This document shows positions 991 through 16,195 of a stretch of 35,369 nucleotides of DNA, piece after piece. Made by a program: the position numbers and the translations under genes. Origin of the DNA: Nitrososphaerota archaeon (GTDB lineage Archaea; Thermoproteota; Nitrososphaeria; Conexivisphaerales; DTJL01). The DNA is taken from the NCBI GenBank assembly GCA_021324115.1, contig JAJPJS010000022.1:1-35369 (forward strand). The letters run 5' to 3'. The first letter of the stretch is position 1; each line of letters starts with the position of its first letter. The notes beneath the pieces are model-generated. The model had not been told where the DNA came from and ran no database searches. It saw only the letters and a program-made list of their open reading frames with translations.

Positions 991-2289
991 TCACCTGTAG
1001 AAGTAGGCAGGTGAACGCTCGAATGAATACTTTGCTGATTGCTTCCCCTTCCTTACCTCTTCAACTCTCTCCATCACCCTTTCCCTTTCACCTCCATTCA
1101 GGGCATAGTGGATTATTGCAGCCACCTCCTTCATATCTGATTTCGAGAATCCGAGCCTTGTCAATTCCGAGGTGCCCAGTCTCAACCCCTCAGGTACCTC
1201 CGGTCGCGGCGTGTACGGCTCCCTCGGGAAGGATTGCCTGTTCGTGATTATGTTTACCGATTCAAGCAACTTCTCAGCCTTTATTCCGCCCCCATACTTC
1301 ATGGTATCCAGCACAACCTGATGGGACCTTGTGAATCCCAGCGCCTCGCCAAGTACATTTTCGCCACTTTCAGATAGTGCTTCTGCGAGTGCCCTCGCGT
1401 TCGAAATCACGTCTCTGGCGTATATTTTGCCAAACTCCATAAGCTCCGCCAGTGCCAGAGCCTTTCCAGCTACAAGGTTTGGATGGTGATTGCTGGTGGT
1501 TCCCGGAAAGACGCCCAGCGAAACCTTCTCGCGAAATTCAGACCTGCCAACTATCATCCCCCCTTGCGGTCCGAACATCGTTTTGTGTGTGCTGAATGTC
1601 AGCAGGTCTGCACCTTCCTTCATGGGGTCCTGAAACTCTCCGCCTGCGATAAGGCCAGCGACGTGGGCACCATCGTACAGTACAGTCGCGCCTATTTCCC
1701 TTATACGCTCAACCATGTCCCTCAACGGATGCGGGAAGAGGAACAGACTGGCCCCGAACGTCACGACCTTTGGTGACTTCTTTTCTCGATGTAGACTTGA
1801 CATCTTCTTGAGAGAGCGGTCCACATCTATGTTCAGTTTCTTGACATCATACTCGAAGTACTCCACCCTGAGTCCGTGCACAAGGCCCGCGGTACCTTGG
1901 GATTCCTTTGATTCAGACGATATGTGTCCACCGCTGGCCGTTGAAAGTGAAACGATCGTGTCCCCCGGCGTGGTTAAGCCTGAATAAACAGAAAGGTTTG
2001 CAATAAGACCTGAAATGGGACGAACGTCAACGAAATCCCCGCCGAAAAGTTTTCTGGCCAGGTCCATCGCGACTTCTTCCACCTTGTCCATATATCTGCA
2101 CCCGGCGTAAATTCTGTCACCGGGCGGACCTTCGGCGTACCGTTGTCCCATATCTGATGAAAGTGCCTCCCGTACCGCCATCGAGGCCAGGTTTTCGCTT
2201 GCTACAAGAGGAAGTGTTCTTGAAAACCAAGCTTCGTGTTCCCTTATCAGCTTCTTCACAAGTCTGTAACTGTTTCTTCCCTGACTCAC
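991..2289 (-). CDS. glyA: Serine hydroxymethyltransferase, archaeal type
   Basis: This PLP enzyme interconverts serine and glycine with a folate or methanopterin-type one-carbon carrier in the cytoplasm. The 432-residue length matches archaeal GlyA. Visible motifs are LVASENLAS near residue 28, YAEGPPGDRIYAG at 51-63, the PLP-carboxylate segment YDGAHVAGL at 205-213, and the PLP-lysine motif STHKTMFGPQGG with Lys236. The start is the GTG at 2289; a TATA-like box (ATTCTAAAAG, minus strand, 2312-2321) is centred 27-28 nt upstream and no Shine-Dalgarno sequence is seen, so a leaderless GTG start is likely. That box lies inside an inverted repeat that could be an operator. The gene runs toward the permease, but each gene has its own promoter-like box. 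Glycine/one-carbon metabolism would connect with purine breakdown farther right, which is an inference only. Confidence 0.93.
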   Translation of the reverse strand: MSQGRNSYRLVKKLIREHEAWFSRTLPLVASENLASMAVREALSSDMGQRYAEGPPGDRIYAGCRYMDKVEEVAMDLARKLFGGDFVDVRPISGLIANLSVYSGLTTPGDTIVSLSTASGGHISSESKESQGTAGLVHGLRVEYFEYDVKKLNIDVDRSLKKMSSLHREKKSPKVVTFGASLFLFPHPLRDMVERIREIGATVLYDGAHVAGLIAGGEFQDPMKEGADLLTFSTHKTMFGPQGGMIVGRSEFREKVSLGVFPGTTSNHHPNLVAGKALALAELMEFGKIYARDVISNARALAEALSESGENVLGEALGFTRSHQVVLDTMKYGGGIKAEKLLESVNIITNRQSFPREPYTPRPEVPEGLRLGTSELTRLGFSKSDMKEVAAIIHYALNGGERERVMERVEEVRKGKQSAKYSFERSPAYFYR

Positions 2290-2535: not shown

Positions 2536-3603
2536 TTGGAGGAGGAAGACAGAATATTACTGTACAGGGACCTCGATGGTACTGTACACGATATAGAGAA
2601 ACCCCCAACCTCCAAGCTGGACTTCAGAGAAGTGTCAAGGCACCTGGGTCTTCCTGGATACCTCGAACCTTTCTGTAGCCCCCTTCAGAGGGCGGTTTTT
2701 ACGATCTGGGTGGCTTCCAATTCGTCGTCGCTCATGTCCGGGCATCCTGACGCGAAAAAAGTGGGGGGCCCCTTGAATCCGTTGCTCATGGGTGGGGCGG
2801 CAGTCAAATTACTGTGCCCATCCGCGAACGAGCCGATGGGACCGATGAACAGAAAACTCAAGGACCTGGACTATGTCGTGAAAAAAGAGCAGGGCTCAAG
2901 ATTCATTGTACTCCTTGCCAACATGAGCGGATTCGCTGGGTCAAAGTATCATCACTTCCTGACGTCCGGAGACAGAAGATTTAATGCGATTCGGGCGGGG
3001 GACAGATACAGGATAAGGTCGGTTGACTGGACGGAGGATATGCAGCCGATCGTCAACTGGGTGGATGTCCTGGTGGAGAAGGTGGAAATGAGGCATGTGG
3101 TGGATGTGAGGGACGAATTCTCCAAGGACCCGAAGCTGAACCATCACACGATAGGTGTCGAGAATCTGCTGCTCACCAAGTGTCAGATGATAATGGAGAT
3201 AGAGTCAAAGGAACATGATGCGCTCGTCCAGTCTGGCCAGGAATTCAGAATCCTGAAGTGCCCGTGGTACCGGAAGAACAGATTTGTCATAGGAATGGAG
3301 GAAAAGGACATGCTCGACACCTGCGCCCTGTTACATGACCATTTTATCCAGGATTCCAGCGTTAAGGTGGAAAAGATCAAAGCGATGATTTCGAAAGACC
3401 AGAAATTCACACTCACGTTTAGGCTGAACATCGAGAACATACTGGAAAGATTTGAATTCCTCAGGAGTAAAGGGATGAGTGAGAGACAGCTATCGCGGGT
3501 TGCCGAAGCGGCGCACGGCATCTTGGGGGCTCTTCCCGATAGTAAGAAAAGATGGGACAAGCCGTGGTGGAACACAGATGTGGACACGCCAACAGTGGCA
3601 TAG
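2536..3603 (+). CDS. Putative nucleotidyltransferase-fold protein (AbiEii-like)
   Basis: This 355-residue protein has no precise family name that I recognise. The core reads as a nucleotidyltransferase fold: MGGAAVKL at 85-91 (the GG-x-A helix start), KDLDYVV at 109-115 supplying Asp110 and Asp112, and VDVLVEKVEM at 176-185 supplying a likely third carboxylate (Asp177). It then has GVENLLLTKCQM at 207-218, close to the E-D/N-LL-x-K-x-Q motif that follows the core in AbiEii and related nucleotidyltransferases, and EEKDMLD...LLHDH later on. The C-terminal about 100 residues are predicted helical. The gene lies between divergent glyA and the hydantoinase-like gene with 44 nt to the latter, each with its own TATA-like box. 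No partner antitoxin gene (AbiEi-like) is adjacent. The start is TTG, supported by promoter spacing. The substrate is unknown; a regulatory or RNA-modifying role is possible. Confidence 0.6.
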   Translation: MEEEDRILLYRDLDGTVHDIEKPPTSKLDFREVSRHLGLPGYLEPFCSPLQRAVFTIWVASNSSSLMSGHPDAKKVGGPLNPLLMGGAAVKLLCPSANEPMGPMNRKLKDLDYVVKKEQGSRFIVLLANMSGFAGSKYHHFLTSGDRRFNAIRAGDRYRIRSVDWTEDMQPIVNWVDVLVEKVEMRHVVDVRDEFSKDPKLNHHTIGVENLLLTKCQMIMEIESKEHDALVQSGQEFRILKCPWYRKNRFVIGMEEKDMLDTCALLHDHFIQDSSVKVEKIKAMISKDQKFTLTFRLNIENILERFEFLRSKGMSERQLSRVAEAAHGILGALPDSKKRWDKPWWNTDVDTPTVA

Positions 3604-3647: not shown

Positions 3648-5048
3648 GTGGCCTCCTTCGACCTTGTGATAAGAAACGGAACTGTAATCGCCCAGGATGG
3701 TATCAGGCCCGCTGATGTTTTTGTCTCCGACGGAAAGATAGCCAAGGTTGCTGCGAGTGGCGAAGAGTTCGCCAGCCCTTCGATGGTGATAGACGCTACA
3801 GGCCTGTCTGTGATACCCGGACTCATCGATTCCCACGTCCACTTCAGAGACCCGGGAATGACCCACAAAGAGGATTTTGAAAGCGGAAGCAAGGGTGCGG
3901 CCGCCGGCGGAACGACCACGGTGTTCGACATGCCGACCACCCAGCCTGTCGTTACGAATGAGAAGTTATTCAGGGAGAAGATTGCACTCGTGAGCAGCAG
4001 GTCGATCGTAGACTTCGGGCTGATCGCCGCGGCAGGTGTTGAAAACACTTCGGAATTGGAAAGGATGGCACGTGCGGGAGCGATTGCGTTCAAGACATAC
4101 ACGGTGGCGCCCCCCGCCGAACGGAGGAAGGAGTATGAAGGCTCGTTTGTGAAGACGCCGGGTGAGCTGCTTGAAGTTATGGAGAAGACTGCAGAGATCG
4201 GCATTCCCCACTGCATACATGCCGAGGAAGATTCTATCATAGATTTTCTTACCCGTAAATTAAAGGGGGAGGGGAGAATGGACATTTCGGCACACTTCGA
4301 GTCCAGACCCAGCATAAGCGAGGAGATTGCAGTGAGAAATGCTATCCTTCTGGCCGAAGCCTCAGGGTGCAGGGTCCATCTTCTTCATCTCAGCACCAGG
4401 GGGGCGGTGGAGGCCGTGAGGGAAGCAAAAAGGAGAGGGGTCAACGTAACGAGTGAAACCTGCCCGCACTACCTTTACTTTACAACGAAGGAAGCGATGG
4501 CGATGGGTCCAAATGCAAAGTACAACCCTCCCGCAAGGTCAAGGGAGGATGTTGCTGCACTATGGGTCGGGCTGAAGGACGGCACGATAGACATCGTAGT
4601 GAGTGACCATGCTCCCCATTCCAGGGATGAAAAGCAGGCGGGGCTGAATGATGTATGGAAGGCTCCTCCGGGTACCCCAGGAGTAGAAACGCGACTTCCG
4701 GCGATGATTCAACTTGCACACACGTGGGGGGCCACGCTGCAGGATGTCATCAGGCTGTGTTCGACATCGGTTGCAAAGGCCTTCAACATATACCAGAGGA
4801 AGGGAGACCTGAAAGCCGGGATGGATGCGGATATCTGTGTTATTGATCCGAATGAAGAATGGAAGCTGGATGCAACAGAGCTCCAGACAAAGGCAAAGGG
4901 CACTGTTCTGTACGGCTCTATGAATATGCGTGGAAGAGTCAGGTATACGTTCGTACGTGGTAATCTTGTATACGAACGAGGGGTGGGTTTCTGTCCACCC
5001 GGTACGGGAAGATTCCTGCCAGGACCCCTGCATCATGAGGGCGGTTAA
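3648..5048 (+). CDS. Cyclic amidohydrolase of the dihydroorotase/allantoinase family
   Basis: This 466-residue enzyme of the amidohydrolase superfamily opens cyclic amides. Metal ligands are visible: HVHFRDPG with His63 and His65, a lysine in AFKTY (Lys149) at the position carbamylated in allantoinases and hydantoinases, His191 in CIHAEE, His247 in LLHLST, and Asp320 in VVSDHAPH. The segment ETCPHYL (270-276) and the stretch WKAPPGTPGVETRLPAM resemble allantoinase or hydantoinase. HFRDPG and the SDHAPH...EK segment are also shared with dihydroorotase (PyrC). Both activities remain open: PyrC would pair with the pyrB-like gene, while allantoinase or hydantoinase would fit the purine-catabolic neighbours. 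The start is the GTG at 3648 with a TATA-like box (ACATAAATC, about 3618-3626) 26 nt upstream, which indicates its own leaderless transcript. It converges on the CodA-like gene. Confidence 0.85.
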   Translation: MASFDLVIRNGTVIAQDGIRPADVFVSDGKIAKVAASGEEFASPSMVIDATGLSVIPGLIDSHVHFRDPGMTHKEDFESGSKGAAAGGTTTVFDMPTTQPVVTNEKLFREKIALVSSRSIVDFGLIAAAGVENTSELERMARAGAIAFKTYTVAPPAERRKEYEGSFVKTPGELLEVMEKTAEIGIPHCIHAEEDSIIDFLTRKLKGEGRMDISAHFESRPSISEEIAVRNAILLAEASGCRVHLLHLSTRGAVEAVREAKRRGVNVTSETCPHYLYFTTKEAMAMGPNAKYNPPARSREDVAALWVGLKDGTIDIVVSDHAPHSRDEKQAGLNDVWKAPPGTPGVETRLPAMIQLAHTWGATLQDVIRLCSTSVAKAFNIYQRKGDLKAGMDADICVIDPNEEWKLDATELQTKAKGTVLYGSMNMRGRVRYTFVRGNLVYERGVGFCPPGTGRFLPGPLHHEGG

Positions 5049-5094: not shown

Positions 5095-6297
5095 TCATGA
5101 TTGCACCTGGGATAATATTCTTCCATCCTTCACAACTACATTTGCAGTCGCGCCCTTGCGCAGAGCCTCGCGGGGGGTGGACTCCGAAAGCACGTTGAAA
5201 TCGGCAGAGCATCCTGGTTCTATGCCGTATCCTTTCAGACCAAGTATCAGGGCAGAATTGTATGTTGGCATCCTGAGTATTGCTTCGAAGTCGGCTTCGC
5301 GATTCAGCTGGGCTTCGTAGGCGAGCAGCCAGCCATTCTTCAGAGGGTGAAACTCCCCGAAAGGATTGTACGGGTCCACCACGTTGTCAAGCCCGTATGC
5401 AATGTTGACACCGGCACGCATAATCTCCTTAACCCTCGTTATACCCCTCCCTCTGGGTGGTGGGTCCTGAGAGCCGCCCACCATCATTGTGCACGGGTTT
5501 GTGATTACGTTCATATTCGAGGATTTGAGCTCCCTTATTATGGAATTCGCCAAAGAATCATCGTAATATGACAACGCGATGATGTGGTCCGCCGTTGCCC
5601 GTCCCCGCAAACCAACCTTTTTCACCAGCTTGGCATAATGCTCAATAAAACTGGTGTATGGCTGAACATCGCAGTGAACATCCAGGGGTAAATTGTGCTC
5701 CTCGGCCAGCCTCGTTACATTTTCCAGATGCCTTATCCCCTCGGAAAGGCTACCCTCAGTTTCTGGAAGACCCCCTACCGCACCCGCACCAAGTTCGATC
5801 GCTTTCTCCAGAAGTCCAAACGCTTCTTTGTCACGCGAAAACCCCTCCTGAGGGAATGCCACGAGCTGAATTTTGATCGTTTTTGAATACATGGCTTTGA
5901 GTCTGGTTAGTGCCCTGAATGAACGAAGCCCCGCCATCGAATCTACATCGACATGAGTCCGAATTGCCGTCACACCATGAAGTAACGCTTCACGTATGCA
6001 CCTTTCAGCCCTTCTGAAAACATCATCCTCTGTAAAGGCAGCCTTTGCATCCCTAACTCGTCTGCGTGCCTCGGACATGCTCTCTGCCTCTGGTAATTTT
6101 TCGGCAAGAAATGCCTTGTCCAGGTGGACGTGAGGCTCGATAAATGTCGGGAGCACAAGCTTGTGATCGGCGTCTATCTCTACATCGGCCCTTGCCTGGA
6201 CTCTTGGCCTTACGGAGGTAATCATCCCCGCTGATACGGATATGTCGACAGGGTCCTCTCGGCCCAGAAGAATCGCATTCCTTACAACAAGGTCCAT
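5095..6297 (-). CDS. CodA-like amidohydrolase with altered active site
   Basis: This 400-residue amidohydrolase aligns along its length with E. coli cytosine deaminase: HVHLDKAF (His56, His58), HCD at 208-210, TADH (His238), RGITRVKEIM (284-293) and GLDNVVDP (302-309, with metal ligand Asp304). Two active-site positions differ. The E. coli HCDE motif, whose Glu217 shuttles protons, reads HCDV here (Val211). GHDDV reads GLDNV, so the Asp314 equivalent is Asn305. Canonical cytosine deamination is therefore doubtful; a ring-opening hydrolase or a deaminase of another base is plausible. The C-terminal metal-dependent hydrolase strands (GCSADFNVL) are intact, so it does not look like a pseudogene. 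The ATG start at 6297 has a TATA-like box (about 6321-6328, minus strand) 27-28 nt upstream. It lies between the hydantoinase-like and pyroglutamyl-peptidase-like genes. Confidence 0.85.
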   Translation of the reverse strand: MDLVVRNAILLGREDPVDISVSAGMITSVRPRVQARADVEIDADHKLVLPTFIEPHVHLDKAFLAEKLPEAESMSEARRRVRDAKAAFTEDDVFRRAERCIREALLHGVTAIRTHVDVDSMAGLRSFRALTRLKAMYSKTIKIQLVAFPQEGFSRDKEAFGLLEKAIELGAGAVGGLPETEGSLSEGIRHLENVTRLAEEHNLPLDVHCDVQPYTSFIEHYAKLVKKVGLRGRATADHIIALSYYDDSLANSIIRELKSSNMNVITNPCTMMVGGSQDPPPRGRGITRVKEIMRAGVNIAYGLDNVVDPYNPFGEFHPLKNGWLLAYEAQLNREADFEAILRMPTYNSALILGLKGYGIEPGCSADFNVLSESTPREALRKGATANVVVKDGRILSQVQS

Positions 6298-6349
6298 GGC
6301 CGATTCTGCGTTGAGGAAGGATAAAAGCGTGATTCGTTCTCCGGCTGGG

Positions 6350-7006
6350 CTACAGGCTTCTCGATTCCAGATATTCCTTGCACGTTTTGAGGGCTATCTC
6401 CACCGCACGTTTTTCGGTGGAAATGGGAAGGGTGAATATTTCCTTGCCCTGGGACCTCAGGTTCACATCGCCCTCCTTCAGCATCTCCGGCACAGGAGGG
6501 ATATGAATGTGCCCTGAGACCGTCTCCGGGTGTGAGCGGGTAGCCTGAAGGAATGAGAACATCGTGGTGTTGCAGCAGTGCGTTCCAGCGTAGAAGGAAC
6601 CCGCGACTGGTATTTCGGACCTCCCGATAGCCGAAACGATTCTGTCCACAGGAAGGGTGCTTCTTCGAGCGAGAGGAGCTCCCTTGATCACAGGTTGATC
6701 CTTGGGCGTGTTTCCTCTGTTGTCCGGCACCACCTTGTCTCCAAACACACTGCTCATTATGTTAAGAGCCACCTTCTCTACCCTCACCGTTCTGGTATAA
6801 TCCCAGCCTATCGAGATGATTATATTGGGGTGCAATTCATCGAAGTATTTCCTTGCCAGTCCGGGTATGGCGTAAAAATCTTCGGGCAGTTCTACACTTA
6901 CTACATCGAGACCGTCAAGATTTCTGCCATTCAGCTCCTTCGCTATCATACCGCCCGGGTTCATATGGCCCGCCCAGGCTTCAAAACCGGTGACAAGTGC
7001 TTTCAT
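6350..7006 (-). CDS. Pyroglutamyl-peptidase I-like cysteine hydrolase (family C15)
   Basis: The product has 218 residues, the usual length of this family, which removes N-terminal pyroglutamate. The catalytic triad can be placed: Glu77 in RVEKVALN, Cys145 in AGTHCCN and His168 in GHIHIP. The opening VTGFEAWAGHMNPGG corresponds to the family's TGFxPFGGxxxNPS. The pyroglutamate pocket is altered: the second Phe of TGFxPF is Trp11, and the Phe-Val pair just before the catalytic Cys is His143-Cys144. A lactam or other cyclic amide from the neighbouring ring-opening pathway is therefore a possible substrate, although ordinary peptide processing is not excluded. A TATA-like box at 7029-7037 (minus strand) is 27 nt before the ATG, suggesting an independent leaderless transcript. 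The start codon follows the PyrI-like gene's end by 24 nt. Confidence 0.82.
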   Translation of the reverse strand: MKALVTGFEAWAGHMNPGGMIAKELNGRNLDGLDVVSVELPEDFYAIPGLARKYFDELHPNIIISIGWDYTRTVRVEKVALNIMSSVFGDKVVPDNRGNTPKDQPVIKGAPLARRSTLPVDRIVSAIGRSEIPVAGSFYAGTHCCNTTMFSFLQATRSHPETVSGHIHIPPVPEMLKEGDVNLRSQGKEIFTLPISTEKRAVEIALKTCKEYLESRSL

Positions 7007-7030: not shown

Positions 7031-7477
7031 TTAAACCTTTGTCTGAATCTTCTTACTCTGTGGAATGAATTTTGTTACTTCCATAAGCGAAGGTGACAGA
7101 GATTCGCGGGGCACATATCTGCCACAGTATTCACACCTAAGAAGCAGTGGACTTACCCTCAGCACCCTGAGCTCGGGTACGGCAGGCTCCTTGGGCTGGG
7201 AAGTAACGCATAGCGGGTTGGGACAGTTCATCAGGCCGACCAATGATTCCGGCAGGGTCAACGGAACCTTCTTGCGCGAGTTACCGCTAACCTGGGCCAT
7301 CTCCAGCTCTGGGAAGAGAATTATTGATTTTGAAACTGCTTCCTTTGAGGGTGATCCCTTTTCGAATGTGAAATACACCCGGCCCTTTCTTCGTTGTATC
7401 GAAATGTCTGTTTCGTTTTGGAATATGCCGTAGGCGTCGGATGCGTGTTCTTCGTTTACAACCAGCTGAAACTTCAT
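7031..7477 (-). CDS. PyrI-like zinc-ribbon protein with truncated allosteric domain
   Basis: The product has 148 residues. The C-terminal part matches the zinc domain of the aspartate carbamoyltransferase regulatory chain: Cys85-x4-Cys90 in NCPNPLC and Cys115-x2-Cys118 in RCEYCGR, the same spacing as PyrI. The preceding ILFPELEMAQVSGNSRKKVP (53-72) fits the end of the PyrI nucleotide-binding domain. The beginning of that domain, including the I-x-x-GTVIDHI segment that binds nucleotides, is absent, and the first 50 residues do not resemble it. In cells PyrI holds catalytic trimers together through the zinc domain; that role could persist without CTP/ATP control. The gene follows the pyrB-like gene after 180 nt but has its own TATA-like box (7531-7541) and, unusually for this window, a Shine-Dalgarno-like GAGGGG (7486-7491) 8 nt before the ATG. 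Confidence 0.72.
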   Translation of the reverse strand: MKFQLVVNEEHASDAYGIFQNETDISIQRRKGRVYFTFEKGSPSKEAVSKSIILFPELEMAQVSGNSRKKVPLTLPESLVGLMNCPNPLCVTSQPKEPAVPELRVLRVSPLLLRCEYCGRYVPRESLSPSLMEVTKFIPQSKKIQTKV

Positions 7478-7485
7478 GCGGTGTT

Positions 7486-7541
7486 CCCCTCTTGAAAAAT
7501 CATAACGGAAGAGGTGAGTGACTCTGGTGAATTAAATATTT
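7486..7541 (-). promoter_or_regulatory. Promoter and ribosome binding site of the PyrI-like gene
   Basis: On the minus strand AAATATTTAAT (7531-7541) is a TATA-like box about 59 nt before the ATG, giving a predicted leader of about 30 nt. GAGGGG (7486-7491) sits at Shine-Dalgarno distance. This differs from the leaderless layout of most neighbours. The remaining 7542-7657 shows no gene. Confidence 0.5.
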
Positions 7542-7657
7542 AGAATGCCTCTTGATCCATGCTTGTGCCATCCCAATCGTTATCCGCAGAACAAAGATCA
7601 ATTGCCAGCGTTTTGCCAGGTAAATTGCAGGGGGCGAACGCCGCAATCTCCTGAGGA

Positions 7658-8584
7658 TCATTCGACTATGCTTGACAGGAGAGCCATCCTTGCAGGGAGA
7701 CCGTTTGCGGCCTCCTGGAAGTATCTGGCGTGGGGTGTGTAGTCCACCTCTATCGGTATCTCATCTATTCTTGGAAGATGATGCATGACGATCATCTTCC
7801 TCTTTGCCTTCGCAAGCATCTTCGAGGAAACGAAGTAACTGCCCTTTACTCGTTCATATTCTGCTGTGTCAGACATCCTCTCCTTTTGAAGCCTGGTTAC
7901 GTACAAGACGTCAACATGGGGAATCACCTTTTCCACGTCTTCGGTCTCATCGTAATCCATCTTGTTTTCTTCTAGAAAATCCTTGACTTCCTCCTTCGCC
8001 CTGAGCTCCCTCGGGCTAACAAGATGGAGCTTCACATCCTTGAAATGGGTCAATCCGAGACAAAGCGAAGAGGCGGAACGGGTATGCTTTAGGTCTCCGA
8101 GAATCGCAATCTCTATCCCGTCGACGGATCCAAATTCCTTGTGAATTGTGTAGAGGTCGGTCAGGGTCTGTGTTGGATGGTGCTGGGTCCCATCCCCTGC
8201 ATTTATCACAGGAGCGTCTGCAACTTCTGCCGCTAGCTTCGCAGACCCCTCGATTTTATGTCTCAGCACGATCACGTTTCCGTAATTGTCCGCCATCCTT
8301 ACCGTGTCCGCGAGTGATTCCCCTGTGACTGTACGCGAAGACGAGGGGTCGGAGAAACCGGTGTAGCCTCCCCCCAGTCTTAGCATGGCCGTTTCAAAGC
8401 TCAGTCTTGTCCGGGTGCTGGGTTCGAAGAACAGTGTGACGAGAATTCTCTTTTTCAGTAAGTCCGACCCTGATTTCGCAAGCTTTGACATGTCGTCGGC
8501 TGTAGAGAACAGCCTTTCCAGCTCCTTCCTGGATACATCCCTTATTGTAATGAAATCTCTGCCCTTGAGGTCTCCATGTGGCAT
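7658..8584 (-). CDS. pyrB: Aspartate carbamoyltransferase-like protein lacking the Lys84 equivalent
   Basis: This 308-residue carbamoyltransferase is of normal PyrB length. Kept residues are FFEPSTRTRLSFE with STRTR at 56-60 (carbamoyl phosphate site), LRH at 107-109, HHPTQTLTDLYTI at 135-147, GDLKHTRS (Arg169) and TRLQKER (Arg231, Gln233). Two sites deviate. The loop that should read x-K-K-G-E or x-A-K-G-E reads TVTGES, so the Lys84 equivalent donated by the adjacent subunit is Thr87. HPLPR reads HHLPR, with His269 for Pro266. E. coli Lys84 is essential for catalysis. The overall fold and aspartate-site residues are intact, which argues against decay and for altered chemistry, such as another amino or ureido acceptor or phosphorolysis. 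It is the nearest match to PyrB rather than to ornithine carbamoyltransferase. The TATA-like box (8605-8613) lies 26 nt before the ATG. Confidence 0.85.
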   Translation of the reverse strand: MPHGDLKGRDFITIRDVSRKELERLFSTADDMSKLAKSGSDLLKKRILVTLFFEPSTRTRLSFETAMLRLGGGYTGFSDPSSSRTVTGESLADTVRMADNYGNVIVLRHKIEGSAKLAAEVADAPVINAGDGTQHHPTQTLTDLYTIHKEFGSVDGIEIAILGDLKHTRSASSLCLGLTHFKDVKLHLVSPRELRAKEEVKDFLEENKMDYDETEDVEKVIPHVDVLYVTRLQKERMSDTAEYERVKGSYFVSSKMLAKAKRKMIVMHHLPRIDEIPIEVDYTPHARYFQEAANGLPARMALLSSIVE

Positions 8585-8643: not shown

Positions 8644-9528
8644 CTAATCCTTCCAGCGGTCTGCAAGCTGCTCCATCGTACAGAACCAGATATCCGGTTT
8701 CTGCATGATGTACTGGATCGTCTGCTCCAGAAGGACTATCCTGTGAGCCCTCCCGGTGCTCTCAGGGTGGAGGACAAGAGCGAAGAAACCGTTCGGCTCG
8801 AACTGATAGGCGTAATCGAAGTCCATTTTCCATATTTCCAGCACCTTCGAAGGATTGTCCAATTTGGGATAGAATGTGGATACACCCAGGAAGTAGGCAA
8901 GGTCGTCTTCTATCAGCTCGTTTACGGGGATATTGAGCATGGACACTTCCTTTCCGAATTCCGGCGGCTTGTCGGTGTGGTATACATCACCATCTCTGAC
9001 CTTGCTTACCCGGAAATCGTAAGGACCCATGTGTTGGGAAATGTACTTGAAACCAAGATCCATCATTATCTTCACGCTGTGCTCGCTCAGCTCGTTCGCC
9101 TGTGGTATCTCGAACGGGACCCGGTACCCGACTGGCGACTTTCCGGTCACTCTCTTTATGGAATCAACACCTTTCTGGAACGATTCCCTCTCCGCCTTTT
9201 CATCCAGAGATGCAGGGCACTCATGGAAGTACCCGTGGTGTGCGATCTCGTGACCCCTTCGGGAGAGGTCTCTGACCATATCAGGATAGGTATCAGCTAT
9301 GACGCCCGGTGTGAAGAAGGTGGCTTTGATATTGTATTTGTCCAGGAGTGCGGCTATCCTCGGGATACCGGTCACGATGCCGAATTCGCCGCGTGAGAAA
9401 TTTATTGGACCGTAGTTTCCTTTTCCGAGAAGACCGACGGCACGCATCCGCAGCATTATAGACCAGGCATCCAGGTCGAATGAAACACACACAGCCAGCC
9501 TTTTACCATCGGGAAGTTCTATTGGCAC
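8644..9528 (-). CDS. NodB-fold deacetylase/cyclic imidase (PgdA/PuuE-like)
   Basis: The 294-residue product has a NodB polysaccharide-deacetylase fold with SFDLDAW (Asp18, Asp20), KATFFTPG (69-76), the HEIAHHGYFHE segment whose His98 and His102 fit the metal H-x-x-x-H pair, and GYRVPFE near residue 153. These features match the group that includes Helicobacter PgdA and the allantoinase PuuE, some of which open cyclic imides rather than deacetylate sugars. Archaea of this type lack peptidoglycan, so hydrolysis of a cyclic imide or ureide is the favoured reading given the neighbours (inference); a glycan deacetylase remains possible. No signal peptide is present, so the enzyme is cytoplasmic. 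The start is the GTG at 9528 with a TATA-like box (9551-9560, minus strand) 28 nt upstream. Confidence 0.8.
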   Translation of the reverse strand: MPIELPDGKRLAVCVSFDLDAWSIMLRMRAVGLLGKGNYGPINFSRGEFGIVTGIPRIAALLDKYNIKATFFTPGVIADTYPDMVRDLSRRGHEIAHHGYFHECPASLDEKAERESFQKGVDSIKRVTGKSPVGYRVPFEIPQANELSEHSVKIMMDLGFKYISQHMGPYDFRVSKVRDGDVYHTDKPPEFGKEVSMLNIPVNELIEDDLAYFLGVSTFYPKLDNPSKVLEIWKMDFDYAYQFEPNGFFALVLHPESTGRAHRIVLLEQTIQYIMQKPDIWFCTMEQLADRWKD

Positions 9529-9755: not shown

Positions 9756-12098
9756 TCAAGAGGGAATCGACAGCGAAGGATGAGCCTCCAGTTTTTCATG
9801 CAGATAAGGCCAGAGCTCATGACTTAGAATAGGAGTCTTTCTGACGATGAATCCCCTTAACCTCAGTGCGTTGCTTATGGCGTTGCCGATGGCTGCCGAA
9901 GGACCTATTATGCCACTTTCCCCCATTCCTTTGATTCCGAGTTCGTTGGCGGGTGTGGGCGTATCAAAATGAAACAGCTCGACTTCGGGGATGTCTGTGG
10001 CGGAGGGTATCAGCCCCTCAAGGAAGGATGTGGTGAGCGGTTGACCCTCCTCCGAGTATATGATTCCTTCAAGCAGAGCCGTTCCGATTCCCTGGGCTAT
10101 ACCACCCAGCAGCTGTCCTTCGACCACCGACGGGTTGATCATGACTCCGCTGTCATCCACCATGATATATTTTACAAGCCTGACCGCGCCGGTCTCGGGA
10201 TCAACATCCACGACCGCGATGTGGAATCCTCCAGAAACAGTAAGGGAGGGGGGCTCGTACTTTACCGTGATCCTCAGCTCCGAATCCGAATTTCCCTCAT
10301 ATGCGAACCTTGCAAGCTCCTTCAACGTCATGCCAGAACCATCTTCCTTGATTTTTCTGACACCCCCCTGCTCATAAACCAGCTCTGATTCGGGTATACC
10401 CATCGATTTTGACGCGATCTTTACCAGGGAAGACTTCAGCAGAAGGGCACATTTGTACATGCCAGCAGCCCCCAGAACAGCACTCCTGCTTCCCCACGTT
10501 CCGAAGCCGTACGGTGTCCGCCTTGAATCACCATGTATAATGGAGACCCTTTCAGGCGTGACCCCCATGAGGTCGGCGCAGACCTGGGAAAGAGTGGTTT
10601 CCAGCCCCTGACCATGAGGGGAAAGGCTCGTGTAAAACGCAAGGTTGCCGTCAGGGAGTAATTCAAGGGTCACGTTCTCGTAGCCTTTGTGCCGCGCTCC
10701 GGAACTTGTCTGGACGACACTGGGGCCGATTCCACCCCCTTCAAAACCGAATGCGACGCCGATGCCCCTCAGCAGATTTCCACTGGTCCTCTCCCGGATA
10801 AGATTATCATAGGACGAGACCTGCCTGGCCTTCCTCAGCATTGCCCGGTAATTTCCGCTGTCTATTACCCTCCCTGCCGGCGATACGTATGGGAAACTGG
10901 TGATGAGATTCATCTCCCTCAGCTCCAGCTCCCCGATTCCAAGCTTTGATGCCGCTTCATCGACAAGCCGTTCGAGCACGAAGGCCGCCTGCTGCTGTCC
11001 GAATCCCCTGTACGCACCGAGTGGAACCTTGTTGGTGACCACACATTGAAGGTTCAGTTTCACATTCTCAATGTTGTAGGGCCCTGTCATGCTGGTTACG
11101 GTAAGCATTGGTGGCCCGAGACTCATGGGACCGAAGGCGCCTATGTCTGCGATGATTTCGTCCCGGAAACCAAGAAATCTTCCTTCTTTTGTAAGTGCGA
11201 GTTCGGCGTCATGCGACTGGTCCCCAGAATGCACGGTGGATTGGAAATCCTCGGTCCGGGTTGCCACCCATTTAACTGGACGTCCGAGTTTCATCGAAGC
11301 AATGGCTGAGAGTACTTCCTCTCTGTAGATGTCCTGCTTGTTGCCAAAACCGCCCCCGACGTCCGGTGCGATCACGGTGATCAGGTTTTCAGGATACTTC
11401 AGCGTTTCAGCAAGCATTGTCCCCAGAAAATGTGGCCATTGCGTGGAGGAGATCACAGTAAGATTACCGGAACCGCGCTCGAACATTGAAATAACGCCAC
11501 GTGGCTCGATCGCAGCACCGTACTGTCTGGTTATCTGAAATCGCTCCCTCACCACCTCGTCAGCCGAATCGAATGCCGCGTCAACCCTGCCCTTTTCGAC
11601 CAGGTGAGAGTAGGCTATGTTATCCCCCCAGCTTCCATAAACGAGATTACCGTGATCTTTCACGGCTGCGCTAGCGTCTGTGATTGCAGGAAGTGGCTCG
11701 AAATCGACCGACACCTTCTCGATCAGGTCAGGAATATCATATCTTGAAGTCGTGACGACGGCCGCAATCGGCTCACCGACATAGGTGGTCATTGAACCAG
11801 CAAGAGGGGAGGTGTTCGGATTTCTGCAGCCTGCTGGGCTCTGAATGAGAGGCAGGTGGTTAGTTAGAGGATTGATTTCATCAGGGGGCAGGAAGAGGAG
11901 GGTCCTGGGGTCATTTGCGAGCGCGGCCCCATCCACATTGATGATTCTGGCGTGGGCATATGGAGATCGAATCAGCCCCATGTAGACGACGCCGGGGGGG
12001 TCGATGTCGTCGACATACCTGGTTTCGGCCAACAGTACCCTGAGGTCTTCCTTCCGTTTCATCCGCCTTCCGATGAATCGTTCTGCTTCCGAATCCAA
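9756..12098 (-). CDS. Molybdenum hydroxylase large subunit (xanthine dehydrogenase/CoxL family)
   Basis: The 780-residue subunit binds the molybdenum-pterin cofactor and hydroxylates a substrate ring or aldehyde. Visible features are FIGRRMKRKEDLRVLL at the N-terminus, PDVGGGFGNKQ at 245-255, GAYRGFGQ at 361-368 with Arg364, and GMGESG at 724-729 with the catalytic base Glu727. The CO-dehydrogenase signature AYRCSFR is absent, so it is not form I CoxL. The arginine that holds purines in xanthine dehydrogenase is kept, but the position after FGxK is Gln255 where classical xanthine dehydrogenases have Glu, so xanthine is a candidate and not proven. No FAD (CoxM) or 2Fe-2S (CoxS) subunit gene lies in the window, so electron partners must be elsewhere. 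The start is TTG, with a TATA-like box (12127-12136) about 34 nt upstream. Confidence 0.85.
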   Translation of the reverse strand: MDSEAERFIGRRMKRKEDLRVLLAETRYVDDIDPPGVVYMGLIRSPYAHARIINVDGAALANDPRTLLFLPPDEINPLTNHLPLIQSPAGCRNPNTSPLAGSMTTYVGEPIAAVVTTSRYDIPDLIEKVSVDFEPLPAITDASAAVKDHGNLVYGSWGDNIAYSHLVEKGRVDAAFDSADEVVRERFQITRQYGAAIEPRGVISMFERGSGNLTVISSTQWPHFLGTMLAETLKYPENLITVIAPDVGGGFGNKQDIYREEVLSAIASMKLGRPVKWVATRTEDFQSTVHSGDQSHDAELALTKEGRFLGFRDEIIADIGAFGPMSLGPPMLTVTSMTGPYNIENVKLNLQCVVTNKVPLGAYRGFGQQQAAFVLERLVDEAASKLGIGELELREMNLITSFPYVSPAGRVIDSGNYRAMLRKARQVSSYDNLIRERTSGNLLRGIGVAFGFEGGGIGPSVVQTSSGARHKGYENVTLELLPDGNLAFYTSLSPHGQGLETTLSQVCADLMGVTPERVSIIHGDSRRTPYGFGTWGSRSAVLGAAGMYKCALLLKSSLVKIASKSMGIPESELVYEQGGVRKIKEDGSGMTLKELARFAYEGNSDSELRITVKYEPPSLTVSGGFHIAVVDVDPETGAVRLVKYIMVDDSGVMINPSVVEGQLLGGIAQGIGTALLEGIIYSEEGQPLTTSFLEGLIPSATDIPEVELFHFDTPTPANELGIKGMGESGIIGPSAAIGNAISNALRLRGFIVRKTPILSHELWPYLHEKLEAHPSLSIPS

Positions 12099-12204: not shown

Positions 12205-13593
12205 TTAATTTCGAAGAAGATCAGATACTCCACCGATACCGGCCCGTTCAAGGATCTTCGGTATGGTGTGCCTTGCGTCAGTCAGGATTTTTTCTTCATT
12301 CAGCGTAAGTACCTTATGATCTTTTACCACAGTCAGACCATCTGCTATCACAGTGTCCACATCGTTTCCAGTAGCGGTGTAAACAACGGTTGAGACAGGG
12401 TCGATCGAAGGAGTGTAAGCAGGCCTTTCGCAACCAAGAATCACGATGTCTGCTCGCTTCCCAACCTCGATTGAACCCACCTTATCCTGAAGTCCCAGAG
12501 CTCTGGCGCCTCCCATCGTGGCCATTTCCAGCACCGTGTACGGATCGATTGCGCCGTGGGTCATCAGCCTTTTTCTCTGAAAAAGGGGGACTAGCCTCAT
12601 CTCCCTGAACATATCATACGTGTTGTTGCATGGAGCGCCATCGCAGCCAAGTCCAACATTAACCCCAGAAGCGATAAGCTCAGGCACCCTTGCTGTTCCT
12701 GAAGCAAGCTTTGAGTTTGAGGCGGGACAGTGAGCGACGTTGCTCCGGGCTGTACCCAGAATAGATATTTCTTCATCTGTGGCCCAGACCATATGTGCAA
12801 AAACCGTGCGTTGGTCAAGAAGACCTACACTCTTCGCAAAATGGACGGGTCTCATGCCGTAATTTGTCATGGAAAATCGGGAATCTTCGGGTACCTCATT
12901 GAGATGCATTGTAATCCCGGTGCCAAGTTCACCGGCGAGTCGACCTATTTCCCTATAAAGCGAAGGGCTCACTCCTCCCAGAGAACGGGCCGCGAGCCAA
13001 ACACCGATTCTTCCTCTGCTTCTTCCGTTCCATCTCTTAAAAAGGTCCACTGCTTCGGATATACAGGCGTCTTTGTCCTCCACCATGCCCGGATGCATTA
13101 TGCCCGACCTGCCGCCATAACCGCCGCTATCCATAATCATCTTCGAGAGGATGCCTCTGATTCCTGATTTCTCAACCATGGCAGCTATAGCTTCATTGCC
13201 ATACCTTCTGTGAAGACCGGATTCTAGGAATGTGGTGGTTCCACTTTTCAGCATCTCAAGGACACAAAGCTGCGCGCTGAGAAGTCCATCTGATTCGGTA
13301 TAGCTTCCCTGAAGCGGCCATATCCTATGCTGAAGCCAATCGACAAGCGAAAGGTCATCGGCGGTGCCTCTGATAAGTGCCTGAGCAAGGTGTACATGGG
13401 TGTCGATCAATCCGGGCAGAATCAGCTTTCCCTTGGCATCCATCACTTCAGAGGCCTTCGATTTATTGTAATCACCAGACTTTCCCACCGAAGTTATGAT
13501 TCCGTCCTCCACCGCTATTTCTGCGTCCTGCAGCACCCTGCGACCAGGGTCCATGGTGACAAGGGTGCCACCCCTGATAATCAGGTCTGGCAT
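12205..13593 (-). CDS. Guanine/8-oxoguanine-type amidohydrolase deaminase
   Basis: The product has 462 residues and belongs to the metal-dependent deaminases of the AtzB/SsnA/guanine-deaminase group. Metal and catalytic residues are HVHL (His66, His68), TMHLNE (His230, Glu233), AHMVW (His267) and GCDGAPCNN (Asp318). The C-terminal GKRADIVIL strand closes the composite domain. The family includes deaminases of guanine, 8-oxoguanine, S-adenosylhomocysteine and triazines. The cysteine-containing GCDGAPCNN motif favours the guanine/8-oxoguanine/triazine side over the MtaD type, but the substrate is not certain. The ATG at 13593 was chosen over one 12 codons upstream because the beta-strand MPDLIIRGG begins there and an A-rich box (about 13611-13619) lies 23-25 nt upstream. 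It sits between the molybdenum enzyme and adenine deaminase, which suits conversion of purine bases. Confidence 0.82.
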   Translation of the reverse strand: MPDLIIRGGTLVTMDPGRRVLQDAEIAVEDGIITSVGKSGDYNKSKASEVMDAKGKLILPGLIDTHVHLAQALIRGTADDLSLVDWLQHRIWPLQGSYTESDGLLSAQLCVLEMLKSGTTTFLESGLHRRYGNEAIAAMVEKSGIRGILSKMIMDSGGYGGRSGIMHPGMVEDKDACISEAVDLFKRWNGRSRGRIGVWLAARSLGGVSPSLYREIGRLAGELGTGITMHLNEVPEDSRFSMTNYGMRPVHFAKSVGLLDQRTVFAHMVWATDEEISILGTARSNVAHCPASNSKLASGTARVPELIASGVNVGLGCDGAPCNNTYDMFREMRLVPLFQRKRLMTHGAIDPYTVLEMATMGGARALGLQDKVGSIEVGKRADIVILGCERPAYTPSIDPVSTVVYTATGNDVDTVIADGLTVVKDHKVLTLNEEKILTDARHTIPKILERAGIGGVSDLLRN

Positions 13594-13713
13594 CAAGACA
13601 GCCTCCGCTCTGATTTTTGAAGCCGGCAAAAAGAACGATGAATTCCAAATGGAATCGTGCTCATCGAACCTGTGGTTTCTATGCCTGCCATTGCATTTGT
13701 GGATTTCATTCGT

Positions 13714-15495
13714 TTACTTGGCTCCAAGTATGACGGGAACAAACTTCTGGGCGTCAACATCGAATAGCCCCTTATCCGTGATCCTTGCATGAGGTATCAC
13801 AGAGAGGGTGATGAGAGCTGGAAGCGGCATGTATGGGTGGTCCAGGACACCCATGGATTTGAATGCCAGCCGCAGCTTTTTCATTTCAGCCGCTACTTCC
13901 GGCAGGCTCTGCTCCGACATGAGCCCTGCTACAGGAAGTCGAATATGGGCGAGTGTAGCCCCGTCCTGAACGGCCGCAATTCCGCCCTGACTACCTATCA
14001 CTAGATTCGCCGCGAGCATCATATCCTGCTCATTTGTACCGACCACCACAAGATTGTGTGCATCATGTGCGATCGTCGAGGCTATGGCGCCTTTTCTGAT
14101 AAGGTTCCTGACAAATCCGAAGTTTCTTCCTCCCCCGTTTCCATGCCTTTCAAAGACAAGAACCAGAGCCAGGTCGTTCAAAACGAAGGAGGAATTTCTG
14201 ACCAATAGATTCGCAGTTCCAAGCTCGGTAAGAGCCATCTTCAGGAATGCTTCTCCCGGATCCTTCCATCTTCCTGAATACTTGGAGAAGTCTATCGCGC
14301 TAACACGTACAGTTCCGTTTTTTATCGGGGCGATCACTTTTATGTCTGACGGTTTCAGCCTTTCCAGCAAGACCGTGCGAAAAGCCCTCCTGTCAAAGGG
14401 TTTTGGTCTGATCCTTGAAGAGAGCCTGCCCTCTTTGACAACCAGACGCCCGTTTGCAACCACATGGCGTACTTCGAATTTTGCCAAATTGCCCAGAAGA
14501 ACAATGTCGGCGTACCTGCCCGGGGCTATCGCCCCGATGTTTCTGTCCCTCATGTGCAGGGCAGGTCTCAGTGTGACGGAACGGACCGCTTCCACTGGGT
14601 CCATGCCCTCTTCAATATATGACCTTACGATGTAGTCCAGGTGGCCGAGTCTTTCCAGGTTATCAGGCATCATGTCGTCCGTACAGAATATCAGATTTTC
14701 CATGCTGGGAAGTTTCTTCAATCTCGACATGAACCTTCTTGCATCCAGAAGATACGGCCCTCTGAGTTTAACGAACATTCCCAGTCTCAGCTTTTCCACG
14801 GCAGTATTCACATCAAAATTTTCGTGGTCGGCTTCGGCCCCAGCCGCGATGTAGGCATTCAGCCTGTCTCCGGAGAGCAAAGGTGAATGACCGTCCACCA
14901 CGGCATCGGTCCTTCTTCCGATATCCAGTATCTCCACCATTCTCTTTGATCCTTTCAGCACTCCTTCGTAATCCATGACTTCGCCGAGACCACAAACGCC
15001 ATTCCAGGACAGCATCTCCTCGACGTCTTTGGCCGTGATTGTCGCCCCTGCGGAGACGGCATCGGATTCCGGGACACAGGTGGGTACAAAGTATTTTATC
15101 TTCAGCGGAAGTCCTGTTGATGCTTCAATCATCATTTTCACACCCGCCTTTCCGAGTACGTTAGCTATCTCGTGGGGATCTGCGAAGACAGAAGTAACGC
15201 CATGAGGAAGCACGGCTTCCGCAAATCTCCAGGGCGTCATCATACTGCTTTCGATGTGCAGATGCGTGTCCACGAGCCCGGGCACGGCCGTTAATCCTTC
15301 TGCGCTCATGACCTGCTCCGCTTCATGCGGCTTGTTGGAGGGGTCCACGAGGACGACCCTGTCTCCGTAAATGCCAATCGATGCTTCGTACGTCTCTCCT
15401 GTGAACACGTTCACGAGGTTCGCCTTTTGCAGAAGCAGCGTCAGCCTTCTCCTGCCAAGGGCTGCTTCCACGTAGCCTGTTGTGCTGGCTGCCAT
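13714..15495 (-). CDS. ade: Adenine deaminase
   Basis: The 593-residue product matches the Ade family, which converts adenine to hypoxanthine and ammonia in the cytoplasm. Hallmarks are DTHLHIESSMM (76-86, His78 and His80), ADPHEIANVLG (105-115), GLGEVMD, DGHSPLLSG and CTDDMMPD. The C-terminal domain with HDAHNLVVVG is present, so the length is normal. The frame is open upstream, but the ATG at 15495 is the start because the family N-terminus begins there and a TATA-like box (CTTATATTT, minus strand, 15518-15526) lies 26 nt upstream, giving a leaderless transcript. The same box faces a small basic gene on the other strand. This is the most secure purine-salvage or catabolic enzyme of the region and supports reading the nearby hydrolases as base catabolism. 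Confidence 0.93.
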   Translation of the reverse strand: MAASTTGYVEAALGRRRLTLLLQKANLVNVFTGETYEASIGIYGDRVVLVDPSNKPHEAEQVMSAEGLTAVPGLVDTHLHIESSMMTPWRFAEAVLPHGVTSVFADPHEIANVLGKAGVKMMIEASTGLPLKIKYFVPTCVPESDAVSAGATITAKDVEEMLSWNGVCGLGEVMDYEGVLKGSKRMVEILDIGRRTDAVVDGHSPLLSGDRLNAYIAAGAEADHENFDVNTAVEKLRLGMFVKLRGPYLLDARRFMSRLKKLPSMENLIFCTDDMMPDNLERLGHLDYIVRSYIEEGMDPVEAVRSVTLRPALHMRDRNIGAIAPGRYADIVLLGNLAKFEVRHVVANGRLVVKEGRLSSRIRPKPFDRRAFRTVLLERLKPSDIKVIAPIKNGTVRVSAIDFSKYSGRWKDPGEAFLKMALTELGTANLLVRNSSFVLNDLALVLVFERHGNGGGRNFGFVRNLIRKGAIASTIAHDAHNLVVVGTNEQDMMLAANLVIGSQGGIAAVQDGATLAHIRLPVAGLMSEQSLPEVAAEMKKLRLAFKSMGVLDHPYMPLPALITLSVIPHARITDKGLFDVDAQKFVPVILGAK

Positions 15496-15517
15496 TACAG
15501 GGAAATTGCAAATGAGA

Positions 15518-15526
15518 AATATAAGT
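15518..15526. promoter_or_regulatory. TATA-like box of adenine deaminase, possibly shared with a small divergent gene
   Basis: AAATATAAG on the plus strand reads CTTATATTT on the minus strand, 26 nt before the ade ATG. On the plus strand it is only about 14 nt before the ATG at 15536, too close for a leaderless start there, so it fits ade better. Confidence 0.45.
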
Positions 15527-15535
15527 CTTGTCAAG

Positions 15536-15712
15536 ATGTCGAGTGGGCTGCGCTCGACAACGGAGGATTGGTGGAAGAAATTGGTAACTCCTAAGGAAGA
15601 TGACGAAATCAGGTTGCTGAGGGAAAGAGAAAAGAAGACGAAGAGAAAAAAGAGAAGCAGAGGTCCATACAGAAAATCTGCTCCGGTAAGAACTTCGGTA
15701 AACAAAGCCTGA
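15536..15712 (+). CDS. Small highly charged basic protein
   Basis: This 58-residue frame is divergent from adenine deaminase. I do not recognise a family. The sequence begins with STTEDWWKKLVTP, then has an acidic-basic helix (EDDEIRLLREREKK) and a Lys/Arg cluster KKRSRGPYRKSA near residue 40. This composition suggests a nucleic-acid or ribosome-associated peptide. An in-frame ATG at 15512 would add 8 residues. No clear promoter spacing or Shine-Dalgarno sequence decides the start. The non-overlapping position, the coding-like charge pattern and the TATA-like box of the next gene directly after its stop support a real gene, but it is short. Confidence 0.45.
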   Translation: MSSGLRSTTEDWWKKLVTPKEDDEIRLLREREKKTKRKKRSRGPYRKSAPVRTSVNKA

Positions 15713-15778
15713 AAGTTATTTATTGCCCGGTACGATGACACGGGTAGAGTTATCAGCAAGCAGTTGGCTGCGGATAGC

Positions 15779-16195
15779 ATGAAAGAATTCAGCATCAGAA
15801 TGAGGGTTCCGTGGTCAGACACTGATGCCGCAGGCGTCGTGCACTTCGCCAACTACTTTCGCTACTTCGAAAGGGTTGAATTGGAACTTTACAGGAAGTT
15901 GGGTTTCGCATACTCGAAGTCTCTCATGAAGATGGGCCTGTGGTTCGCGAGGGTCGAAGCGCACTGCAGCTACCTCTCCCCCTGCGAATTTGATGATGAG
16001 ATTGAGGTGAAGATGCGCCTTACGACACTCGGCAGGAGGTCCGTCAAGTACGGGATGGAGGTTCTCAACCTGACCACCGGAAAGGTCGCCGCAAAGGGTC
16101 ACATTGTGATAGTCTCTGCAAACAAATCAAAAAAGAGGGCGGTTCCGCTACCAGACGAGTTCAGGGAGGCTTTGCAGAAGTATTTTGTGTCCTGA
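15779..16195 (+). CDS. Hotdog-fold acyl-CoA thioesterase (YbgC/4HBT family)
   Basis: The 138-residue hotdog protein has the family opening RVPWSDTDAAGVVHFANYF at residues 9-27. Asp16 occupies the position of the catalytic aspartate, and the usual V-x-Y/F-ANYFR-F/Y-E helix follows. Family members hydrolyse short or aromatic acyl-CoA thioesters in the cytoplasm; the acyl group cannot be predicted. The ATG at 15779 begins the first strand directly; a TTG five codons upstream is the alternative. A TATA-like GTTATTTATT (about 15716-15725) lies some 58 nt upstream, giving a short leader. The gene converges on the FAD-linked oxidase gene with a 3-nt gap. Confidence 0.85.
   Translation: MKEFSIRMRVPWSDTDAAGVVHFANYFRYFERVELELYRKLGFAYSKSLMKMGLWFARVEAHCSYLSPCEFDDEIEVKMRLTTLGRRSVKYGMEVLNLTTGKVAAKGHIVIVSANKSKKRAVPLPDEFREALQKYFVS

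Follow-up and report, generated by a model that had tools for sequence, protein, structure and literature searches.

A PyrB–PyrI pair with an altered active site and a degenerate allosteric domain in a nucleobase-breakdown gene cluster of Nitrososphaerota archaea

Background

Aspartate transcarbamoylase (ATCase) is the textbook example of allosteric feedback control, and its holoenzyme, as in Escherichia coli and Sulfolobus (1pg5), joins PyrB catalytic chains to PyrI regulatory chains. Transcarbamoylases, both ATCase-like and other, are also known to act phosphorolytically in purine clusters. For example, ureidoglycine carbamoyltransferase (UGTCase) of Rubrobacter xylanophilus (Rxyl_2847) phosphorolyses allantoate (PMC4016543), YgeW from the uric-acid cluster of E. 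coli was shown to phosphorolyse a ureido acid (PMC12507026), and AllFGH provides a further precedent for a phosphorolytic carbamoyltransferase in a purine cluster. The families can be separated by their motif at positions 265–268, which reads HPLP or HPGP in ATCases (Barba and colleagues, PMC4016543 Table 1), while UGTCase and the pseudo-ATCases of groups 1–3 carry HPLA or H(S/T)LP and have lost the RxQ motif. The open-access literature that we searched held no account of a PyrI without a nucleotide site in a catabolic cluster.

Here, we describe a PyrB–PyrI pair from a Nitrososphaerota archaeon that shares with the ATCase holoenzyme its adjacent genes, PyrB fold, carbamoyl-phosphate residues, four-Cys zinc domain, and predicted N-domain topology, but in which the nucleotide residues of PyrI are lost, Ser80, Lys84, and Pro266 of PyrB are changed, and the surrounding genes form a nucleobase cluster and not a pyr operon.

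Results

The window (contig JAJPJS010000022.1 of assembly GCA_021324115.1, the whole stretch of 35,369 nucleotides analysed) encodes on its reverse strand an ATCase-like carbamoyltransferase (7658–8584) followed by a 148-residue relative of the ATCase regulatory chain (7031–7477, ATG start), hereafter the variant PyrB and variant PyrI. The zinc domain of the variant PyrI (residues 80–125; 7103–7240, reverse strand) matched Pfam PyrI_C (PF02748) at 3e-11 and 43.4 bits against a cut-off of 23.4, while the NCBIfam PyrI equivalog TIGR00240 gave 32 bits (9e-8), far under its cut-off of 148.55. An earlier sequence-only reading had noted Cys85/90/115/118 at PyrI spacing, and this was borne out: the arrangement C-x4-C-x24-C-x2-C is invariant relative to a canonical archaeal PyrI and present in all four members of the family, where the surrounding motif CPNPxCVTSQP(K/R)EPAxPE is also invariant or nearly so. 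These members are the window's own genome (G000) and the three other carriers (G001, G002, and G003), which have orthologues of the same short type (143–149 residues) adjoining PyrBs 75–77% identical to that of the window. Both frames are intact in all four genomes, which span three genera, and the recurrence of pair and cluster in the three other genomes is far above chance. Among 150 relatives searched with PF02748, most genomes had one match apiece; by comparison, none of 16 genomes from other families of the same order (G004–G019) had a PyrI_C match, although most nonetheless have a canonical PyrB. A scan of contigs turned up a canonical PyrB–PyrI only.

Upstream of the variant PyrI lie a putative TATA-like box, TAAATATTTAA (7542–7532), and a partial Shine-Dalgarno sequence, GAGGGG (7491–7486; together 7486–7542, reverse strand), both read directly from the sequence; a scan of the window for TTTAWATA gave no match and thus speaks neither for nor against the TATA-like box. 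The gene had been proposed to carry expression signals of its own, and both are there, the second in partial form, but the spacing from the variant PyrB, 180 nt in the window, shrinks to 9 nt or an overlap in the relatives, so separate transcription would be peculiar to this genome at best. In one relative's stretch (L035, 8743–9135, forward strand), a PNPOx-like gene lies between the C15-family gene described below and the variant PyrI gene, its end overlapping the end of the latter by a few bases; it is not found in the other three.

The first 50 residues of the variant PyrI had been considered unrelated to PyrI. The exact GTVIDHI segment is indeed missing, and the PyrI N-domain profile PF01948 found no match in the protein or in the whole own assembly (2.14 Mb, 95% complete), in a search that was positive in 7 of 14 control genomes. 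Four lines of evidence nevertheless contradict the idea of unrelated sequence. First, blastp matches the variant PyrI of G003 to canonical PyrI over 144 residues (2.6e-18), in an alignment that starts in the GTVIDHI region. Second, in a profile comparison, the four N-domains align in register with canonical ones over residues 36–65, with a probability of just 34% but a score of 25.5 against a maximum of 20.7 among 100 column shuffles. Third, AlphaFold predicts for residues 1–70 (7268–7477, reverse strand) the beta-alpha-beta-beta-alpha-beta topology of the PyrI N-domain (block pLDDT about 81–92); the zinc domain of this single-sequence model has low confidence, and TM-scores for the whole chain (about 0.4) therefore carry no meaning. 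Fourth, in a Foldseek search, a Sulfolobus ATCase regulatory chain was the sole PDB match below E 0.001, and ATCase regulatory chains also fill the next 14 places. Together, these show a shortened and diverged allosteric domain and not a foreign one; the N-terminus is the PyrI N-domain by descent, in degenerate form. A second AlphaFold model, built from a two-row alignment with the canonical PyrI of a Geoarchaeota contig (L033), was poor (pLDDT 38) and was set aside.

For nucleotide contact, we compared V9, I12, D19, H20, K56, K60, N84, Y89, and K94, which we take to be the contact positions of E. coli PyrI. Across 47 canonical PyrIs, the first eight vary little or not at all, whereas in the four variants they are substituted or absent; the sole survivors there are a basic residue at K94 and, in G002 alone, the Asn at position 84. 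As hallmarks of the allosteric domain, PF01948, GTVIDHI, and the contact residues are thus all gone, and the fold alone is retained. The sequence-only reading had named a structural match of residues 1–60 to the PyrI nucleotide-binding domain, with intact ligand residues, as the result that would speak against its view; given a degenerate allosteric domain at the N-terminus, half of this was found, namely the match to ATCase regulatory chains, while the ligand residues are not intact. The constraint on the domain has also changed. Within the family, identity is 12–41% in the N-domain, 45–74% in the zinc domain, and 73–86% in PyrB, whereas 27 canonical pairs at 70–80% PyrB identity have a mean N-domain identity of 71% and a minimum of 64%, which argues that constraint was lost from the N-domain and not from the rest of the complex. 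Judged from these residues, the variant PyrI probably no longer binds ATP or CTP and would exert no pyrimidine feedback, in keeping with the loss of nucleotide control proposed earlier.

The variant PyrB scored 343.3 bits against the ATCase profile TIGR00670 (cut-off 236.95). In a tree, the four variant PyrBs group in a single clade with support (98/87) within the archaeal ATCases. The best of the other PyrBs, from 398 sampled genomes of the phylum, reach no more than 56% identity, and those inspected are canonical. Across 50 canonical PyrBs, 72 positions are at least 95% invariant; about 90% of such positions are kept in the variant PyrB, and positions 80, 84, 155, 235, and 266 (E. coli numbering, used throughout; own residues for 80, 84, and 266 are 84, 87, and 269) are changed in all four variants. 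Three of these, Ser80 and Lys84 of the 80s loop and Pro266, are listed ATCase active-site residues (PMC4581275 Table 1). They are invariant in all 50 canonical PyrBs and in all nine PyrI-less PyrBs compared, and have become Arg, Thr, and His, respectively, in each of the four variants, so that the 265–268 motif reads HHLP. The other listed carbamoyl-phosphate and aspartate residues that we checked (Ser52–Thr55, Arg105, His134, Gln137, Arg167, Arg229, and Gln231) are kept, including the RxQ aspartate motif (RLQ).

In E. coli, the zinc domain of PyrI presumably contacts a PyrB surface motif, E109-G-x-A-(K/R)113. This motif is kept in all four variant PyrBs but has been lost from the nine PyrI-less ones, which come from the same-order genomes G004–G019 (families f2–f4). 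These share the fold and a close taxonomy with the variant PyrB and show the converse pattern: Ser80, Lys84, and Pro266 kept, PyrI and the contact motif lost. They thus serve as a natural control, which argues that the variant PyrB and PyrI still touch and supports the structural role beside a divergent PyrB that had been suggested. The partner is more than a divergent PyrB, given the loss of Lys84, Ser80, and Pro266, the nucleobase-breakdown cluster, and a carbamoyl-phosphate synthetase (CPSase) large chain that we could not detect.

In all four genomes, the pair is flanked by a polysaccharide-deacetylase-fold (CE4) hydrolase (8644–9528, reverse strand; PF01522 5e-18), which is weakly PuuE-like (TIGR03212 1e-15, below cut-off), and by a pyroglutamyl-peptidase (C15) family protein (6350–7006, reverse strand; PF01470 6e-32, below NCBIfam cut-offs). 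Four further genes are also found in every copy of the cluster: a cytosine-deaminase-like amidohydrolase (5095–6297, reverse strand; PRK07572 289 bits, below the cut-off of 438), a cyclic amidohydrolase of the dihydroorotase/allantoinase family (3648–5048, forward strand; TIGR03178 369 and TIGR00857 338 bits, both above cut-off), a TRZ/ATZ-type aminohydrolase related to guanine deaminase and SsnA (12205–13629, reverse strand; no NCBIfam match above cut-off), and an adenine deaminase (13714–15852, reverse strand; TIGR01178 453.5 bits against a cut-off of 472.5, Pfam Adenine_deam_C). The cyclic amidohydrolase carries HVHFRDPG and MPTTQP, and has MPTTQP or MPTTVP in place of the dihydroorotase MPN in all four genomes, so that the would-be pyrimidine pair has shifted in both of its enzymes. 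Of the four stretches as read, three also contain a xanthine-dehydrogenase-type subunit and a serine hydroxymethyltransferase (SHMT). In the window, these are a molybdopterin-binding subunit of the xanthine dehydrogenase family (9756–12098, reverse strand; Pfam MoCoBD_1/2) and, at the far end of the cluster, an SHMT gene (991–2289, reverse strand; PRK00011 399 bits, above cut-off) whose position is shared with G001 and G002. The xanthine-dehydrogenase gene of G002 is a fragment, and the molybdopterin-binding subunit gene of G003 does not lie between the CE4 and TRZ/ATZ genes.

Two further members of the cluster were noted. The C15 protein, found in all four genomes, has the Glu, Cys, and His motifs that would be expected, VEKVALN, AGTHCCN, and GHIHIPP, respectively. 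A conserved 355-residue protein without a Pfam or NCBIfam match is encoded at 2536–3603 (forward strand) of the window, at 4199–5329 of L035, and at about 10093–11039 of L036, where it is split over two frames.

Compared with known purine-cluster enzymes, the variant PyrB shares with UGTCase an ATCase origin, a place in a cluster for purine degradation that includes a cyclic amidohydrolase, conserved carbamoyl-phosphate motifs, and a changed 265–268 motif. Unlike the pseudo-ATCases, it keeps RxQ and has HHLP, and thus falls outside UGTCase and groups 1–3; it also has a PyrI partner and no adjacent carbamate kinase, whereas no PyrI partner is reported for UGTCase, whose gene lies next to that of a carbamate kinase. 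YgeW likewise lies near xanthine dehydrogenase and amidohydrolase genes, but is a knotted transcarbamoylase on the AOTC/SOTC side without PyrI, and its profile (TIGR03316) gave the variant PyrB 32 bits against a cut-off of 500. Elsewhere, an FdrA/AllF-like protein is encoded in G001 (L137, 58–1371; PRK06091 319.5 bits, below the cut-off of 433), near a xanthine-dehydrogenase-type pair and a dihydropyrimidinase.

Discussion

On balance, the pair is probably, in our view, an ATCase holoenzyme that was repurposed and freed of regulation, working as a catabolic carbamoyltransferase in nucleobase breakdown with PyrI in a structural role. Both subunits would have been recruited together for another job, into a nucleobase-breakdown cluster, and the variant PyrB would be a carbamoyltransferase with an altered second-substrate site. 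The ring-opening amidohydrolase may yield a ureido (N-carbamoyl) acid, which the variant PyrB, in the most likely catabolic direction, would cleave with phosphate to an amino compound and carbamoyl phosphate, the latter then being usable by carbamate kinase or ornithine transcarbamoylase (OTC). With its zinc domain retained, the variant PyrI probably continues to link catalytic trimers, in the role of a structural subunit. We infer complex formation, the loss of nucleotide binding itself, the direction of the reaction, and its substrate. Carbamate kinase was found above cut-off in all four genomes, no CPSase large chain was found in G000–G002, and the second carbamoyltransferase of the own genome is OTC, but the absence of carbamate kinase from the cluster itself speaks against this explanation.

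The kept Arg167 and RxQ, unlike in known pseudo-ATCases, and a TIGR00670 score well above cut-off also weigh against a catabolic enzyme, and point to a biosynthetic ATCase that has an odd active site (Arg80 replacing Lys84) and no feedback and merely sits among salvage genes. This we consider possible but unlikely. In its favor, G001 and G002 encode clustered PyrE, PyrD, and PyrF, with no ATCase-like gene beyond the variant PyrB and OTC and, by the search used, no other type-I dihydroorotase, which fits carbamoyl-aspartate synthesis by the variant PyrB. Thermococcus kodakarensis, moreover, makes pyrimidines without CPSase (PMC13260591). Against it stand the invariance of Lys84, Ser80, and Pro266 in canonical and PyrI-less PyrBs alike and the gene content of the own genome (95% complete), where PyrF had no match and neither PyrD nor CPSase any above cut-off, absences that, like the others given here, rest on single-family searches; because PyrE, PyrD, and PyrF are clustered in the relatives, a single gap could explain the missing PyrD and PyrF. 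G003 encodes CarA, CarB, PyrE, PyrF, and an MPNT-type dihydroorotase elsewhere, along with a broken canonical PyrB–PyrI. Given these gene sets, carbamoyl-aspartate supply by the variant PyrB is a possibility above all in G001 and G002.

The broken pair of G003 (L038, about 5880–6350) consists of the remnant C-terminal end of a canonical PyrB and a PyrI of canonical type (GTVADHTPA) whose frame is shifted, and may be a pseudogene or an assembly error; its contig resembles the rest of G003 in tetranucleotide composition and GC, so a foreign origin is unsupported, though a binning or sequencing error is possible. Another contig of the own genome (L136, 2862–8088) groups a dihydropyrimidinase (TIGR02033 518 bits), a nitrilase-family carbamoyl-amide hydrolase, an aminotransferase, and an aldehyde dehydrogenase, and looks like reductive pyrimidine breakdown.

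It is improbable, in our judgment, that the variant PyrI is instead a regulatory subunit sensing a different ligand, such as a pathway intermediate, through a remodeled N-domain. The confident predicted fold indicates that the domain has not simply decayed, and Foldseek also returned, with weak E-values, PII-like proteins, which have a ligand-binding alpha-beta fold. A shared ligand would be expected to conserve its site; yet no conserved residue set marks a new pocket, L54 and P56 being the sole invariant positions in the first 70 residues across the four members, and N-domain identity falls to 12–21% between more distant members. Rapid N-domain divergence and an interior gap in the G003 N-domain might suggest a functionless, decaying relic, but the intact frames in four genomes of three genera, the almost invariant zinc motif, and the conservation of about 90% of invariant PyrB positions and of synteny make this very improbable.

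Within the preferred explanation of a deregulated, catabolic holoenzyme, we tentatively propose, as a doubtful but specific candidate, a two-subunit transcarbamoylase derived from the whole ATCase holoenzyme, with PyrI as a deregulated scaffold, acting on 4-ureidoimidazole-5-carboxylate. This compound is the xanthine ring-opening product in purine-fermenting clostridia, and the Clostridium acidurici genome study could not identify the genes converting it further (PMC3519856). Its carboxylate would be placed like the aspartate beta-carboxylate, matching the kept RxQ; it has no alpha-carboxylate, which would match the changed Lys84 and the changed Asn of the dihydroorotase MPN; and its pathway leads to glycine, which would match the SHMT gene of the cluster.

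Conclusions

Phosphorolytic transcarbamoylases of purine clusters have been described before; the new element in this case is that the PyrI partner accompanied PyrB and lost its sensor. A regulatory chain with its clamp but no sensor, beside an altered catalytic chain, indicates that evolution can separate the structural from the regulatory role of PyrI, and with this pair, nucleobase breakdown in archaea would gain a further type of transcarbamoylase. In such genomes, a PyrB or PyrI annotation is by itself no proof of pyrimidine synthesis.
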